Assembly: GCA_913055805.1 (NCBI GenBank)
Contig: CAJXLF010000013.1
Location: forward strand, 1 to 64,000
Source: an uncultured Salinisphaerales bacterium
GTDB taxonomy: Bacteria; Pseudomonadota; Gammaproteobacteria; Nevskiales; CAJXLF01
Reading direction: 5' to 3'
Length of the DNA: 64,000 bases
Each line of letters starts with the position of its first letter. Position 1 is the stretch's first letter. Both the position numbers and the translations under genes were made by a program. This document shows positions 1 through 62,767 of this stretch, one piece after another. Below the pieces are notes generated by a model. It was not told the DNA's origin. It searched no databases and worked only from the letters and a program-made list of their open reading frames with translations.

Positions 1-213
1 TTGCCGCTTGACCATCTGACACCTCCCGGGGCATTGTCCCCCTATTGAAGTGTCCGGAAAACTCAGTACAGCCCAGATCCCTTTTATTGTTCGTGATTGC
101 CACCACCCCGATGTCAGGGGTGGCGATCCCTTTAGTGAGCTATTCTTGTGCATTCATTGAGTCGGGATGTCTGCGGAAAAAAAGAGGCCGGTATGAATTG
201 AAGCCACATAAGA
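1..213. other. Non-coding left edge of the cassette region
   Basis: No open frame here has coding character. The stretch contains an imperfect inverted repeat around 96-133, in which GCCACCACCCC faces GGGGTGGC. Near 18-60 there are CTGACACCTCC and TGTCCGGAAAA motifs that could be the edge of a mobile element cut by the window. I could not identify an insertion-sequence family. Confidence 0.35.
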
Positions 214-221
214 AGTGAAAA

Positions 222-245
222 AAATTACTCCGACCCCCTTTATTC
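222..245 (+). repeat. Direct repeat, copy 1 (TTACTCCGACCCC type)
   Basis: The core TTACTCCGACCCCC followed by TTTATTC recurs almost exactly at 1760-1782 in the same orientation. This copy begins a few bases beyond the stop of the arr-like gene, where an integron attC site would be expected. From memory, similar motifs flank REP-associated Y1 transposase genes in gammaproteobacteria; that link is an inference and no transposase is present here. Confidence 0.6.
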
Positions 246-249
246 GAAA

Positions 250-993
250 TCAATTAATAATTTCTCCTTTGTTCTTGGCCAGCTTTTCGCGCCATTCGTT
301 AACATCCTCAGATGTTTGTCGTGTCCAGTCCGTTACTTCGCCAACGATTTTCAACGGCGCTTGCGAGCGATATGAGCGTGTTGGATTACCAGGAAACTTT
401 TTATCGGTGACATTCGGGTCATGCTCAAATGCCCCTGTTGGTTCAATAATATAAACACGTTCCCGCCTCTCACCCTCTGCCAATGCAGCGGCCAATCCTG
501 CCCCGTTAACCTGGGCTGTGAAATAAACATGATTCATCTTGAGGCCTGCTTTGTAATTTGAGTTTTCGCCTGCTGTCAGGAGGTCGCCAACCTGCAAATC
601 CGCTTTCGTCCCATGATAGAAGGGGCCTTTGTCAGAAGGCCGGCCTATATCGGAAGCCGCTAGTTCATAATTCTTTCTTGCTTCGTCAGGTTCGTTTATA
701 TCGTCGTAGCATTTTGCAATATTTGAATAGAGAGAAGGTAAGGCACTACTTACGGTGTCGTCATGGATTTTTAGCGCATACTTTAAAGCTGTCTCAAGCC
801 ACTCCAATTTCTCGGAAGTATTTTTTTGATATCGAGCCACATAATGAGCGGAAATGAATTTTTCAAAGTCATATGTTGCTTCATTCCAGGCCTGAAAAAA
901 GAGTTTGCTTGCTTCTTCAGGTAATTCTTTTTCTGCCATACCCATGCCCTGAAGGCAAAGCTGAACAATTTTGTTTTTCGGATTGAATTCCAT
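250..993 (-). CDS. TPR-like domain fused to rifampin ADP-ribosyltransferase (Arr) domain
   Basis: The 247-residue protein has two parts. Residues 1-118 are helical and TPR-like, with a 'SLYSNIAKCYDD' repeat near 87-99. Residues 122-247 match the Arr family, whose members transfer ADP-ribose from NAD+ to a rifamycin hydroxyl. Visible Arr hallmarks are GPFYHGTKADL (His128), HVYF (Tyr157), EPTGAFEHDPN (Asp192) and KFPGNPT. These correspond to the His/Tyr/Asp set described for Arr enzymes. Classical Arr is about 140-150 aa and lacks the N-terminal extension. The ATG follows a degenerate attC half-site and the stop precedes a direct repeat, so this is an eroded integron cassette. Activity on rifampin is inferred; the TPR part may redirect it to another target. 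Confidence 0.85.
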   Translation of the reverse strand: MEFNPKNKIVQLCLQGMGMAEKELPEEASKLFFQAWNEATYDFEKFISAHYVARYQKNTSEKLEWLETALKYALKIHDDTVSSALPSLYSNIAKCYDDINEPDEARKNYELAASDIGRPSDKGPFYHGTKADLQVGDLLTAGENSNYKAGLKMNHVYFTAQVNGAGLAAALAEGERRERVYIIEPTGAFEHDPNVTDKKFPGNPTRSYRSQAPLKIVGEVTDWTRQTSEDVNEWREKLAKNKGEIIN

Positions 994-1007
994 AATTATC
1001 TCGATAT

Positions 1008-1041
1008 CGCTCCTGACATTCGCTGCAACGACTAGTTATGC
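1008..1041 (-). other. Degenerate attC half-site
   Basis: On the minus strand, just after the SRPBCC stop, the sequence reads GCATAAC then TAGTCGTTGCAGCG. This resembles the 5' core and inner arm of an integron attC site. The complementary second arm and the closing GTTAGGC-like core are missing before the arr-like ATG, so the site looks truncated. It marks the junction between two cassettes. Confidence 0.45.
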
Positions 1042-1048
1042 GTATGCA

Positions 1049-1510
1049 TCACACTGGACAACCATCTGGAAACTGATCGGGCACTAGATTGAGTTCAATG
1101 CCATGCTCCAGCCAGGCCTTGAGGCCTGCAAGCACCATCGTATAACCGCCCTTCGAGTCAACAGCATGAGGCAGTACTTCGTCACAAGTGCCGGGAAATC
1201 CCCAGTTGGTAATAGTGACCAAAGTTGCTCCATCTCCACGTTCCTCAAAATGCCACTCAACGATTGTTGGATCATTTTCCCATTCGATGAGTATCCGGGC
1301 GTTTTCTTCCAGTTCCTTGACCGTGAGAGTGTCGCCGACACCGAACATCTCCCAGTCCCAACGCACTTGCGTGTTGCTATCGAGCCGGCCCGAGCTTTTA
1401 GTGAACCAGAACTTGGTAGTGATCTCTGGGTTAACGATGGCTTCAAATACTTCGGATACCGGCTTGCGAACCAGCATCTGCGCCGTAATTTTTACTGACT
1501 CTTCATGCAC
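1049..1510 (-). CDS. SRPBCC / AHSA1-type ligand-binding domain protein
   Basis: The 153-residue protein has the layout of the AHSA1 branch of the START-like SRPBCC fold. It starts with a strand containing 'RKPVSEVFEAIVNPE', then has 'TKFWFTKSSGRL', a central 'VRWDWEMFGVGD' hairpin and a C-terminal helix 'GGYTMVLAGLKAWLEHGIEL'. Such proteins bind small hydrophobic ligands or act as polyketide cyclase-like or stress proteins; the substrate here is unknown. No signal peptide is visible. The gene lies between eroded attC remnants, so it is probably cassette cargo. ORFs of this type are recurrent in environmental integrons, from general knowledge. The ATG at 1510 has no strong ribosome-binding site. 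Confidence 0.75.
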   Translation of the reverse strand: MHEESVKITAQMLVRKPVSEVFEAIVNPEITTKFWFTKSSGRLDSNTQVRWDWEMFGVGDTLTVKELEENARILIEWENDPTIVEWHFEERGDGATLVTITNWGFPGTCDEVLPHAVDSKGGYTMVLAGLKAWLEHGIELNLVPDQFPDGCPV

Positions 1511-1759
1511 GATTATCTACCTCCGGGATCGCGTGGCTGTTGGTCAATACGTAAAAGAAAATGGGGGCTGATTCTTGACTCCTTTTGTTGCACTATCTGT
1601 GTCCACGGCATGTCGTTCGTTTCATCGACATTGATTAATCGAATCCGGCAAATGCAAATCGACAATGTTGCTGTTCGGGGCTGGAGTTAAGTGGTGGTCA
1701 GTGAGATAAGGGATTCGGGTGGGCGTGCGTAAAGAGGCGGAATAGATTTTTCTCTAGTT
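1511..1759. other. Non-coding spacer inside the cassette region
   Basis: No credible gene and no complete attC site was found in these 250 bases. A cassette this long without an ORF could carry a promoter or be scar tissue left after loss of the attC arm at 1791-1843. Confidence 0.4.
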
Positions 1760-1782
1760 AATTTACTCCGACCCCTTTATTC
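1760..1782 (+). repeat. Direct repeat, copy 2 (TTACTCCGACCCC type)
   Basis: AATTTACTCCGACCCC followed by TTTATTC repeats the motif at 222-245 in the same orientation, with one base fewer in the C run. It sits immediately beside the truncated end of an attC site at 1791-1843. The two copies therefore delimit a segment of about 1.5 kb holding arr and the SRPBCC gene. Confidence 0.6.
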
Positions 1783-1790
1783 ACCGAAGT

Positions 1791-1843
1791 GGTGCTAGAT
1801 CAGCCGCCCGATTAGGGCGGTCCCGCTTGAGTGCCTTGTTAGC
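1791..1843 (-). other. Truncated attC site
   Basis: Read on the minus strand this starts with the core GCTAAC, which also supplies the TAA stop of the 193-aa cassette protein. It continues through AAGGCACTCAAGCGGGA and a CCGCCC/GGGCGG hairpin. The expected closing arm ending in a GTTAGGC-like core is absent; the sequence diverges after GGCGGCTGATC and runs into the direct repeat. The retained half closely resembles the intact site at 2424-2488. Confidence 0.65.
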
Positions 1844-2420
1844 TTCGGGCAGCAGAGCTTTCATGGGCCTTGATATATTTTGATATATGAAACGCAATCG
1901 TCTGAATGCAATTTCTGTAGAAGAAGAGTACTTCCAGGAAAGACTGGAAGACAAAATAGGAGAATGCTCCTGCGGTGGTAAGGGTTGTAAAGTCCTTCCT
2001 TTTTTTAGGGTTCGCATGCACGATTCCACCATAAAAAACTATTTGAAATAGCTCCTCGTTGGTCATTTCACCATTATCTTTAAATTGAACAAAGGCTTTT
2101 CCTTTTAGCTCCTGGTGCAATTTATCCCTAGCTTCCCGTATAGCTTTTCTTTGGGGAGAAAATCGATCTTCCCAAGTACCAGTGATATCGGCAATTTTTC
2201 TAATAGAAAATCCATCACGATCTTGAATTAGAAATCGTAGATTGAGGCAAAATGCGTCAAGCGCATCTTGGTTTAGGCCGTCATGTGCGAGCCAGTTACC
2301 CTGAACGATTTTTTCCATATCGGACTCGCCGCGACGGCTAGTTGCCCAATCCCAAAAAGCACTCGTTTCTAAGCGTTGCGCCTTCTCTACAAATAAGAAC
2401 AACTCTTCCGGTATTTTCAC
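1839..2420 (-). CDS. Cassette-borne protein of unknown function (193 aa)
   Basis: No family was recognised. The 193-residue protein is predicted soluble and largely helical, with charged segments around 'FSPQRKAIREARDKLHQELK' (about 90-110) and a hydrophobic aromatic stretch near the C-terminus (about 145-185). The initiator is GTG at 2420, only a few bases after the attC core at 2424-2430, so it has almost no leader and may be translated from an upstream cassette message. The TAA stop lies inside the next attC core. Both boundaries fit a simple integron cassette. A HEPN-like or other defence-related fold is possible from the helical layout, but no diagnostic motif is visible. Confidence 0.65.
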   Translation of the reverse strand: MKIPEELFLFVEKAQRLETSAFWDWATSRRGESDMEKIVQGNWLAHDGLNQDALDAFCLNLRFLIQDRDGFSIRKIADITGTWEDRFSPQRKAIREARDKLHQELKGKAFVQFKDNGEMTNEELFQIVFYGGIVHANPKKRKDFTTLTTAGAFSYFVFQSFLEVLFFYRNCIQTIAFHISKYIKAHESSAARS

Positions 2421-2423
2421 GGA

Positions 2424-2488
2424 GCTAACGCCTGAGCTAAGGGGCGGCCAGCGAAGCTGGGCGTCCCTGCTTGAGCGAATTGTTATGC
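2424..2488 (-). other. Integron attC recombination site (intact)
   Basis: On the minus strand the site opens with GCATAACAATTCGCTCAAGC. It passes through an imperfect stem, GGGACGCCCAGC / GCTGGCCGCCCC with a TTCG loop, and closes with CTCAGGCGTTAGC. The arrangement, about 65 bp length and near-palindromic outer arms match classical attC (59-base element) sites of aadA-type cassettes. The sense direction is the same as the cassette genes. The TAA stop of the upstream gene (2483-2485) is embedded in the opening core. This is the strongest evidence that the region is an integron array. Confidence 0.9.
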
Positions 2489-2866
2489 ACCATCTTTTAC
2501 CGCATTTATATGATTGAGTAACTCAGTAGGGGAAAGAACTCCAAGGGCTACTAGCATTATTAGCAGCCCACCAATAATTAGCGCCATAGCTGCCCAGACT
2601 GATTTGAACCGAATATGCAGTGATATGCCACCCCAAATACTTGAGCCAAACCCACATAGGAATATAAATATTCTCGTTTTGTCTTCGGCTTGATCGAAGA
2701 ATGTAAGTATCCCAGCACTTGTAAAAATACATACAACTGGGAGTATTAGCCAAACGCGGTTGAGCGGGGCACTAGGCTTTAAGAGATAGTCGGATAAATT
2801 TAGGCCATTATCTTCAAAGATATTTCTTACTTCTTCGTGCGTTCCTTCCAAAGGGCCGATTTTCAT
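2483..2866 (-). CDS. Small membrane protein, second gene of a two-gene cassette
   Basis: The 127-residue protein has a soluble N-terminal part of about 38 residues, beginning 'MKIGPLEGTHEEVRNIFEDNG', followed by three or four hydrophobic segments between about 38 and 115. It has no signal peptide and no recognised family. Its ATG overlaps the TGA of the upstream gene by four bases (2863-2866), so the two are translationally coupled. Its stop lies inside the attC core at 2482-2488. Coupling of a soluble protein with a small multi-pass membrane partner recalls toxin/antitoxin or abortive-infection pairs, but nothing in the sequence proves this. Confidence 0.7.
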   Translation of the reverse strand: MKIGPLEGTHEEVRNIFEDNGLNLSDYLLKPSAPLNRVWLILPVVCIFTSAGILTFFDQAEDKTRIFIFLCGFGSSIWGGISLHIRFKSVWAAMALIIGGLLIMLVALGVLSPTELLNHINAVKDGA

Positions 2867-3246
2867 TTTTCTGCCCTCTTGCTATTAGAAAGAAGTTTTT
2901 CTATGTCGCGTTGGGCAGCGTCGTCATTCCATTCGTTGGGGTTAGATTCTTTGATGTAGATGATTCGGTTGGGTTCAAGTAACGTACTTGTGCCACCAAA
3001 ACGCATACTGCCGAAATTCCCGCTAAAAGCTCTCTGATTTACTTTTGTTAGGGCGGTGCCGATTGATGGACTTAATGCTTGGTAGCGATCGTCATTTTCA
3101 AGACCGTCACCTAATTTAAATTCAAGTATTGCTCCGCCATCTTCTGAGGGAAAAATATCACAAGAAATACCAATCCCTGGACGAAGGTGACGAGCCAAAC
3201 GTCTGCGAAAATTGTTTATGTATTTTTGATATTTCTCATTCTTCAT
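2863..3246 (-). CDS. Cassette protein of unknown function, first gene of a two-gene cassette
   Basis: The 127-residue soluble protein has a basic N-terminus ('KYINNFRRRLARHLRPG') followed by a probable beta-rich body. It has no signal peptide, no transmembrane segment and no family I recognise. The ATG at 3246 lies 28 bases downstream (minus sense) of a GTTATGC integron core at 3274-3280. A purine-rich GAGAGGGAACG about 14 bases before the ATG could be a displaced ribosome-binding site. It overlaps the membrane-protein gene downstream by four bases, and together they fill one cassette ending at the attC at 2424-2488. Confidence 0.65.
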   Translation of the reverse strand: MKNEKYQKYINNFRRRLARHLRPGIGISCDIFPSEDGGAILEFKLGDGLENDDRYQALSPSIGTALTKVNQRAFSGNFGSMRFGGTSTLLEPNRIIYIKESNPNEWNDDAAQRDIEKLLSNSKRAEK

Positions 3247-3273
3247 GAAAGTCCACGTTCCCTCTCTAATGGT

Positions 3274-3456
3274 GCATAACTAGTATTAGACACCTAAACA
3301 GGTGAATAACCTGGCGGCCCCAGGTGTATAACCCCGGCAGTGCAGGCATAAATCTTTGAAATTCCGGAATACAGGAATATGAAACGGGACTCGCTCATCG
3401 AGAAAAGCACCTCGTGTTGATATTTGTTTTAGTTGAGGTCTTTAGACTGCTACTGA
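3274..3456. other. Junction between cassette region and chromosomal egtD
   Basis: This holds a GTTATGC core (minus strand, 3274-3280) followed by two short inverted repeats, CACCTGTTTAGGTG and ACCTGG-GGCCG-CCAGGT (both read on the minus strand), then unremarkable sequence up to the egtD stop. It could be the first recombination core of the array, or an attI remnant, but no integrase gene lies on either side. No gene is present. Confidence 0.4.
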
Positions 3457-4458
3457 TCAGCCGGTTTGTAAATACCAAAGGCTGAATAGCCGGTTCTCGT
3501 CTGTCCACATCTGTTCTGTCTGCCAGCCGGCCTGGGCGGCCAGGGTGATAAAGTCATCCGGCGAGTATTTATGCGAATGCTCGGTACAGATGGCTTCGTC
3601 AGTTTCGAAGTCGAAGTGTTCCGAGCCGTTGATATTTACCTGCTGTTTTTCTTTGCTCACCAGCCACATGCGGATGGCGCCGGTGGCTTCGTCGTAGTCG
3701 GCATGGTGGCGGAACTGGCCGAGATTGAAGTCGGCCTGCAGTTCGCGGTTCAGGCGTTTGAGCAGGTTGAGGTTGAAGTCGGCAGTGATGCCTTTTTGGT
3801 CGTTGTAGGCGGCTTCGAGGATGGCGGGGTCTTTCTTCAGGTCCACGCCGATCAGCAGTGAGCCGCTGTCGCCCAGCAGTTGCCGCCAGCCCTTGAGCAG
3901 TTGCCTGGCTTCCTCGGGTTTGAAGTTGCCGATGGTGGAGCCGGGGAAGTAGATCATGCGGTTCTGCGTTTCGCGGTTTGGTTCGGGCAGTTGTAGCGCC
4001 TGGGTGAAGTCGGCGCAGACCGGCAGGATGTCCATGGCCGGGAAGTCGACGGCCAGTTGGGCGGCATAGTCCAGTAACTGGTCGCGGGCCACGTCGATAG
4101 GCATGTAGGCCACCGGATCATGCAGATGTTCCAACAGCAGGCGGGTCTTGATGCCGCTGCCGCTGCCGGGTTCGATCACGGCGCAGTCCGGGCCCACGCG
4201 TTTGGCGATGTCTTCCAGGTTGTCCTGCAGGATGCCCAGTTCGGTGCGGGTGGGGTAGTACTCCTCCAGCTCACAGATCTGCTCGAACAGTTTGGCGCCG
4301 CGGGCGTCGTAGAAGTACTTGCAGGGCAGGGTCTTGGGCGTGGCGCTCAGTCCGGCAATGACATCGGCCAGCAGGGTGTCGGTGTCCGGTTCGAGGTCGA
4401 GCAGGTCGATGTCGGCCAGTTGCTGTTTGCGTAAGGCGCTGGAAAAAGAGGGAGCCAT
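3457..4458 (-). CDS. egtD: L-histidine N-alpha-methyltransferase EgtD
   Basis: EgtD trimethylates the alpha-amino group of histidine with S-adenosylmethionine to give hercynine, the first step of ergothioneine synthesis. The 333-residue protein has the family length. Hallmarks are 'KYFYDARGAKLFEQICELEEYYPTR' broken across residues 47-71, the SAM-binding EPGSGSG loop at 96-102, 'MIYFPGSTIGNF' and 'LLIGVDLKKD', and a C-terminal 'RLFSLWYL'. It lies 23 bp downstream of egtB and is presumably co-transcribed. No egtA, egtC or egtE homologue is seen nearby. That would fit EgtB using cysteine directly, or supply of the other steps from elsewhere in the genome. Confidence 0.95.
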   Translation of the reverse strand: MAPSFSSALRKQQLADIDLLDLEPDTDTLLADVIAGLSATPKTLPCKYFYDARGAKLFEQICELEEYYPTRTELGILQDNLEDIAKRVGPDCAVIEPGSGSGIKTRLLLEHLHDPVAYMPIDVARDQLLDYAAQLAVDFPAMDILPVCADFTQALQLPEPNRETQNRMIYFPGSTIGNFKPEEARQLLKGWRQLLGDSGSLLIGVDLKKDPAILEAAYNDQKGITADFNLNLLKRLNRELQADFNLGQFRHHADYDEATGAIRMWLVSKEKQQVNINGSEHFDFETDEAICTEHSHKYSPDDFITLAAQAGWQTEQMWTDENRLFSLWYLQTG

Positions 4459-62174: not shown

Positions 62175-62289
62175 GGGACCTCCCGATAGCCGCGCCCACC
62201 CGCGCGGTAGATTGCATGGAGGCCAGGGTCGGGAAGTGGTCAGCAACATCAGGGAGATGTACCGGTCGACCGCCCGCCGCGGCTTCCTC

Positions 62290-62475
62290 GTTCGGTCGCA
62301 GGCCGGTCTCCGGACTCGCAAGCTGCCTGGGGCGCCCTTTCCACCTTCCCGCATGTTTTTACATGCAGTGGTATCCGGAAAGGGAGGCTTGCCTACCGTT
62401 GCGGGGGCAGTGCCGGGATTGAGATCAGAAGACTCGCACCGGCTTCCCGTTTCATTTCATGAGCCAGGCCCATGA
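62290..62475 (-). promoter_or_regulatory. Cobalamin (AdoCbl) riboswitch controlling btuB
   Basis: Read on the minus strand, the leader has all the conserved blocks. 'GGGAAGCCGGTGCGAGTC' opens near 62449. 'GCACTGCCCCCGCAACGGTA' lies at 62394-62413, followed by GGCAAGCC. The B12 box 'AGTCCGGAGACCGGCCTGC' is at 62298-62316. The order matches the classical cobalamin element upstream of btuB. It should shut off btuB expression when cobalamin is plentiful; the exact expression platform lies in the 115 bases between the box and the ATG. Confidence 0.95.
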
Positions 62476-62494
62476 AACACCTGTGACGTGGGCG

Positions 62495-62767
62495 TTATTT
62501 TAACACTGCGGCAAGGCGTTCTTGCAGTTCCGGTGCGGTGAGGCCGGTAATTTCCAATACCTTGCGAGGCTGAGTATGTCCGCTTGTGATCTCAATAGAG
62601 GAGGCGGGGATGTCCAGCTTGCCGGCCAGCAGTCTGATGACAGTATCGTTGGCCTTGCCTTTTTCCGGTGCGGTGGTGACGGTGATTTTCAACACATCTC
62701 CCATCCAGCCCTGCAGGCAGTTGCGGCTGGCCTTGGCTGTTACCTTGATGCCAAGCCGGCAACTCAC
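62495..62767 (-). CDS. yggU: DUF167/YggU family protein
   Basis: The 90-residue protein matches YggU, with 'LGIKVTAKASRNCLQGWMGD', 'ITVTTAPEKGKANDTVIRLL' and 'SSIEITSGHTQPRKVLEITG'. It is a small alpha/beta protein of unknown role. Its ATG overlaps the stop of the cyclotransferase-like gene by four bases, so the two are coupled. Confidence 0.92.
   Translation of the reverse strand: MSCRLGIKVTAKASRNCLQGWMGDVLKITVTTAPEKGKANDTVIRLLAGKLDIPASSIEITSGHTQPRKVLEITGLTAPELQERLAAVLK

Follow-up and report, generated by a model that had tools for sequence, protein, structure and literature searches.

Our findings suggest that the cassette array described here is probably an integron platform without an integrase, made up of an orphan attI at 3275-3363 and the cassettes captured there, and that it is one of at least four in its genome. 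The window, i.e., the whole stretch of DNA analysed, comprises bases 1 to 64,000 of an 86,047-bp contig (C13) in a draft genome of 3.38 Mb (21 contigs, 95.7% complete), and the relatives used for comparison are genomes of the same order, none of them from the same family. Judged by its sequence, the locus is CALIN-like, with an orphan attI and not a random attG insertion as its starting point. In the mechanism we propose, an IntI acting from elsewhere, or one once present, would have captured the cassettes at this attI; the integrase would have been lost rather than sitting in an assembly gap, insertion at orphan attIs would be carried out by IntI in trans, and the orphan sites of this genome would have arisen in the same way as those of its relatives. 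The features of the locus are given below from right to left, the direction in which the array runs.

3457..4458, minus strand: egtD-like chromosomal gene immediately upstream of the attI, where intI would stand (ORF; tblastn with relatives)
3275..3363, minus strand: orphan attI-like site (held-out match to the attI model, 23.2 bits, E 3.5e-6, sole match in 64 kb)
2429..3279, minus strand: cassette 1, from the TT of the left core to the G of the attC crossover, 851 bp
2863..3246, minus strand: cassette 1 ORF a, 127 aa (ORF list)
2483..2866, minus strand: cassette 1 ORF b, 127 aa, overlapping ORF a by 4 nt (ORF list)
2424..2488, minus strand: attC site of cassette 1 (attC covariance model, 41.1 bits, E 3.3e-8 over 64 kb; folding)
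1839..2420, minus strand: cassette 2 ORF, 193 aa (ORF list)
1786..1843, minus strand: half attC of cassette 2, with R'' and L'' kept and L' and R' lost (sequence; blastn)
1049..1510, minus strand: AHSA1/START-like ORF, 153 aa (Pfam PF08327, E 2e-11)
250..993, minus strand: rifampin ADP-ribosyltransferase (arr) ORF, domain at residues 125-223 (Pfam PF12120, E 4e-47)
1..77, no strand given: repeat end, 100% identical over 70-77 nt to end sequences of contigs C7, C18 and C21

The attC at 2424-2488 was recovered with a covariance model trained on 21 attC sites taken from integron arrays in ten genomes of other members of the order, which bears out the classical 65-nt site reported in the preliminary description. 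The next matches of this model in the 64 kb reached 10.4 and 10.2 bits (E > 2), the site was again the sole match in bases 1-3500 with filters off, and its R''/L''/L'/R' architecture, as scored by this model, places it among attC sites. Its plus strand folds with a z of -3.8 relative to shuffles, none of 200 of which folded as well, against a z of -1.3 for the minus strand. The left core GTTATGC (3280-3274) is complementary to the R'' box GCATAAC of the same cassette's attC, as expected for an intact cassette 1 of 851 bp. As had also been noted, cassette ORFs meet the core, with ORF b ending inside the attC and the cassette 2 ORF beginning four bases beyond it. The earlier picture of a cassette stretch is therefore kept and its layout corrected: the cassettes lie on the minus strand and the array runs from right to left, to the contig end.

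ORF a of cassette 1 gave no Pfam match at 0.1 and no NCBIfam match at 0.01, and ORF b weakly resembles a DUF3792-like membrane protein (Pfam PF12670, E 0.005, below the family cut-off). No family match was found in Pfam or NCBIfam searches for the cassette 2 ORF, whose stop falls inside the R'' box of the attC relic belonging to the same cassette. In this half attC, which gave no significant match to the attC model on either strand, R'' (GCTAAC) matches the start of cassette 2, and by blastn 59 bp are 93% identical to a site in an array of contig C3, where an IS3-type element follows directly. The arr ORF exceeds the cut-off of its NCBIfam family (NF033144, 158.4 bits, cut-off 130) and matches the solved structure 2hw2 by phmmer (E 1e-37). 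Between it and the AHSA1 ORF, GCATAACTAGTCGTTGCAG at 1016-1041 resembles the R''-L'' half of a further attC, unscored by the attC model. The 3' continuation of the array is cut at the contig end, in the repeat common to other contig ends. The default CALIN definition of IntegronFinder 2 is at least two attC sites with no integrase within reach, and the window holds one intact and one half attC before the contig end, and no integrase. As a separate observation, AAGGGGTCGGAGTAA occurs at 225-239 (one mismatch) and 1763-1777, with exact or one-mismatch copies at 13 places in the genome. It was considered as an integron part and dropped, since two inverted copies on C1 flank a transposase ORF, presumably of the RAYT family; it is probably a REP-like repeat.

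The attI-like site, of a type that ordinarily adjoins an integrase gene, sits about 800 bases to the right of the attC. It consists of two direct-repeat-like boxes (GGTTATACACC and GGTTATTCACC), followed by GTGTCTAATACTA and, at 3280-3274, the crossover core GTTATGC. The model that found it was built from three sites of the same genome and six of relatives (alignment A5; own sites L157, L158 and L160), with the window site held out, and its score, 23 bits, is modest. A second model, of array leaders, did not detect the window site; this model independently matches intI-attI gaps in relatives, which joins the held-out match in arguing for attI by similarity. Position argues in the same direction, with a cassette left core at 3280, a matching R'' at 2488 and no match to the attC model upstream of the site within the window. 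No intI adjoins the site, and upstream stands instead the ORF at 3457..4458, which we take to be egtD-like and in which no IntI similarity was found. An intI relic was sought upstream of the window attI, a looser look included, and dropped with nothing above chance. In a scan for the egtD-like gene, the relatives proved too distant to show an empty site (best identity 55%). Two further candidates were rejected: a hairpin or attenuator in the leader, the folding of which is inconsistent among the four copies (z -0.9, -3.2, -3.2 and +0.3), and the pattern GGGTGTTATACCC, which gave 53 two-mismatch matches against 55 in a reversed control and of which only two exact copies mattered. In the left third of A5, intI-bound and several orphan attIs retain a TCAAnGAGTTA-like stretch, located upstream of the crossover by about 80 nt.

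The preliminary description had left a choice between a larger array to the left and a CALIN. The second half of that choice holds, in that the locus is CALIN-like and has no intI; the array does not derive from a platform further left, its 5' start lying at about 3280 and being of attI type. The attI-type array start at 3275-3363, together with three further attI-like starts in the same genome, is an addition to that interpretation. The locus resembles a CALIN in having attC sites and cassettes with no integrase nearby, and differs in that the array begins at a recognisable attI and that several such arrays occur per genome. Like a sedentary chromosomal integron (intI, attI, array) it presents an attI and then cassettes in the same order and orientation; unlike one, neither the locus nor the assembly has an intI. 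Insertion by a past integrase at a non-classical chromosomal site (attG), yielding a CALIN without a platform, is a published process (Loot et al. 2024, as cited in parts of PMC12901181 and PMC12444791) that would share with the window the cassettes outside an intI platform, the missing intI and the arrays at several loci. We regard it as very improbable here: the acceptor resembles an attI with its repeats and not a genomic site unrelated to attI and attC, the start was recognised as attI-type by the held-out model, and all four matches of that model in this genome are array starts.

These four arrays each start beside chromosomal genes inside contigs, namely at the left end of C13 (C13L, the window array), the right end of C13 (C13R, the other end of the window's own contig), the left end of C12 (C12L) and the right end of C18 (C18R). 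C12L and C13R are 73% identical over 161 nt ending at the cassette junction, and C18R shows a relationship to each of the two (scores of 70 and 44 in local alignment, vs shuffle maxima of 43). The window start aligns with C12L at a score of 55 vs a shuffle maximum of 42, and its similarity to C13R and to C18R is not above shuffles. C18R retains a 29-codon relic of the IntI N-terminus (E 3e-4); no such relic was seen at C12L, C13R or the window site, and nothing above chance emerged from a looser look at C12L and C13L. Three leaders have a short ORF at -138 that was considered as a conserved leader peptide; it was rejected, as in C18R it is the reverse strand of the intI 5' relic. Further attC sites of this genome, almost all of them close to a contig end, lie on C3 (right and left), C12 left, C13 right, C1 left and C18 right; C6 has a degenerate one. 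Across 13 chosen sources including the window (180 kb) the attC model gave 16 sites at E < 0.01 and 19 at E < 0.1, and the count for the genome is at least this, 150 of 3383 candidates having been scored. A degenerate attC-like site at L162 4383-4452 (20 bits) lies in a contig interior beside umuDC-like genes. A toxin-antitoxin cassette, which we take to be HigBA-like, is common to C1 and C3 (L155 9725-10296 and L159 992-1563; 86.6% identical over 648 bp). By this measure the shared cassettes of the genome are old, and recent activity is not seen in it.

The preliminary description was right that no integrase is visible. None is encoded in the 64-kb window, and none exceeds the cut-off of the NCBIfam profile integrase_gron in the whole assembly (95.7% complete). 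Five weak matches to this profile resemble XerC/XerD or a fragment; a relative's IntI as query found the same places plus one more weak match, and a tyrosine-recombinase fragment lies at C10:42606. The window locus accordingly lacks the intI beside the array that marks a complete integron, a gene that exceeds the cut-off of this profile in 39 of the 61 genomes of the order covered by one search and in 55 of the 85 covered by another. As the genome is 95.7% complete and breaks occur inside arrays, an intI could sit in a gap. On another reading the whole pattern would be an assembly artefact, one normal integron with its intI and array pieces scattered over contigs. Nearly all attCs of the genome lie near contig ends, and repeats of about 77 nt are common to the ends of contigs, as such scattering would predict. 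We nevertheless hold it to be quite improbable, because the four starts are joined to four different chromosomal neighbourhoods without intI, more than one platform could give, and because the orphan sites of a relative, G001, are far from the ends of their contigs, which measure 396 and 171 kb. The two ends of C3 (end of L155 and start of L156) carry an identical 77-base stretch that stops exactly at a G|TT cassette boundary, with different cassettes beyond; this stretch could be an overlap of the assembly and mark another repeated array start.

Orphan sites of this kind extend to the order. The leader model, built from three array starts of this genome only (C12L, C13R and C18R) and run over 85 genomes, gave six matches at E<=0.1 outside its three sources; the strongest pair, one in G079 (E 4.2e-4) and one in G010 (E 5.1e-4), occupies the interval separating intI from the first cassette, and the pair ranked after it, in G058 and G042, immediately precedes attC sites. 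The attI model gave 60 matches at E<=0.01 in the 84 other genomes, six of them its own training sites, and all 60 were fetched with about 1.5 kb upstream and up to 4 kb downstream (270 kb in all). All 128 attCs that the attC model found around these sites, at least two of which (in G001 and G002) are training sites of that model, lie downstream on the attI strand, with none upstream or on the opposite strand. When IntI similarity was sought in the 1.4 kb upstream, 13 sites had a full IntI, 13 a partial one (a weak match, E 0.003, in the case of G056:C40) and 34 none. Among the 47 sites with an attC the numbers were 10, 11 and 26, the last including G075:C71, which has only 383 bases upstream and is uninformative on intI. 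The resulting 37 orphan sites with attC are spread over 27 genomes, and in 17 of these an intI above the cut-off is present elsewhere; of the 60 sites, a further ten lack both an attC and a full intI, and two of those lie within 115 bases of a contig end. As the attI model recognises the attI place of only 20 of 65 intI genes (E<=0.5), it describes one attI family, and the 60 matches are not a full tally of orphan attIs. On these sequence comparisons, orphan attIs of the window kind are common in the order, often with a stump of the intI 5' end.

The stumps bear directly on ordinary decay, according to which four complete integrons each lost their integrase by deletion and the attIs are fossils without later use in trans. 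Partial intI sequences next to orphan attIs, seen at 13 of 60 sites in relatives and also at C18R, are what decay would leave, as are the half-decayed attCs of the window, and part of the text of PMC9024848 describes CALINs as proposed degraded integrons. We consider this reading possible, if on the doubtful side, as it sits poorly with G001, in which orphan attIs carry cassettes identical to those of a distant intI array although the attIs themselves differ by 15%, and with a similar case in G056; this evidence bears on the relatives and not directly on the window's genome. G001 has one intI, on a 1.04-Mb contig (C1), and its orphan attIs lie on C4 and C9, the long contigs mentioned above. 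The first cassette at both is a 322-bp block, starting and ending at G|TT crossovers, that is 100% identical to two cassettes of the C1 intI array, although identity to the C1 attI is only 83.4% for the attI on C4 and 85.2% for that on C9. The case of G056 is similar, with an orphan site on C7 and the intI array on C50 sharing 120 of 120 bp from the junction to the contig end. Of the 14 genomes from which two or more sites were fetched, these two show such 100% identity.

Exact identity of cassette size is better explained by site-specific insertion by a distant integrase than by recombination of the flanks, and an integrase acting in trans on orphan attIs fits these sequences best. In at least one relative an orphan attI is apparently still filled in this way by the single remaining integrase, and one integrase may fill several loading points around the chromosome. 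What may be read as the genomic signature of attI-attC recombination by an integrase is confined to G001 and G056. This leads us to a broader proposal, held tentatively and at slightly less than an even chance, that these are split integrons, in which one integrase serves several scattered intI-free attI docking sites, seeded by copying 0.15-0.5 kb of attI and intI 5' end, with capture genome-wide rather than at one platform.

In several cases an orphan and an intI-bound site of the same genome are alike over the attI and part of the intI 5' end and then diverge, with identities of 88.6% over 271 bp in G032, 88.2% over 280 bp in G034, 90.1% over 292 bp in G063, 85.2% over 298 bp for G001:C9 and 92.5% over 478 bp for G026:C2. 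For 13 of 64 sites the nearest neighbour belongs to the site's own genome, where 2000 permutations gave a mean of 1.7 and a maximum of 10. This likeness would fit copying of the attI with its intI stump equally with duplication of a platform and subsequent loss of intI. Some orphan loci also occur in more than one species together with their flanks, as in G032:C21 and G034:C6 (90.3% over about 1.6 kb), G001:C4 and G056:C15, and G014:C8 and G059:C232.

A literature search of open-licence PubMed Central papers found no report of orphan attIs, and PMC3607928, in the part available, speaks of only one attI in each integron. IntegronFinder 2.0, as described in part of PMC9024848, does not seek attI outside class 1, so orphan attI starts could go unseen. 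A parallel is found in Xanthomonas, where CALINs away from ilvD occur in about half of the genomes and CALINs can be mobilised in trans (PMC12444791, in part). They resemble the present case in that a genome has several arrays without intI, the gene being either lost or located elsewhere; unlike it, no attI is reported at CALIN starts in the available portion of that paper. Lost integrases, attG insertion and assembly breaks are the candidate origins of CALINs, and with an attI model the question of how a CALIN starts can be asked locus by locus; in this one genome all four known array starts are attI-like. If orphan attIs are filled in trans, capture would not be tied to a single platform beside intI, and views of cassette position, expression and array growth would change. 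The arr-family gene, a candidate cassette only, makes this array stretch a plausible environmental source of such genes. Its ORF is extended at the N-terminus by about 120 aa that match TPR weakly, and solved Arr proteins match the C-terminal part only. Far to the right in the window, a cobalamin riboswitch lies at 62284-62499 on the minus strand (105 bits).
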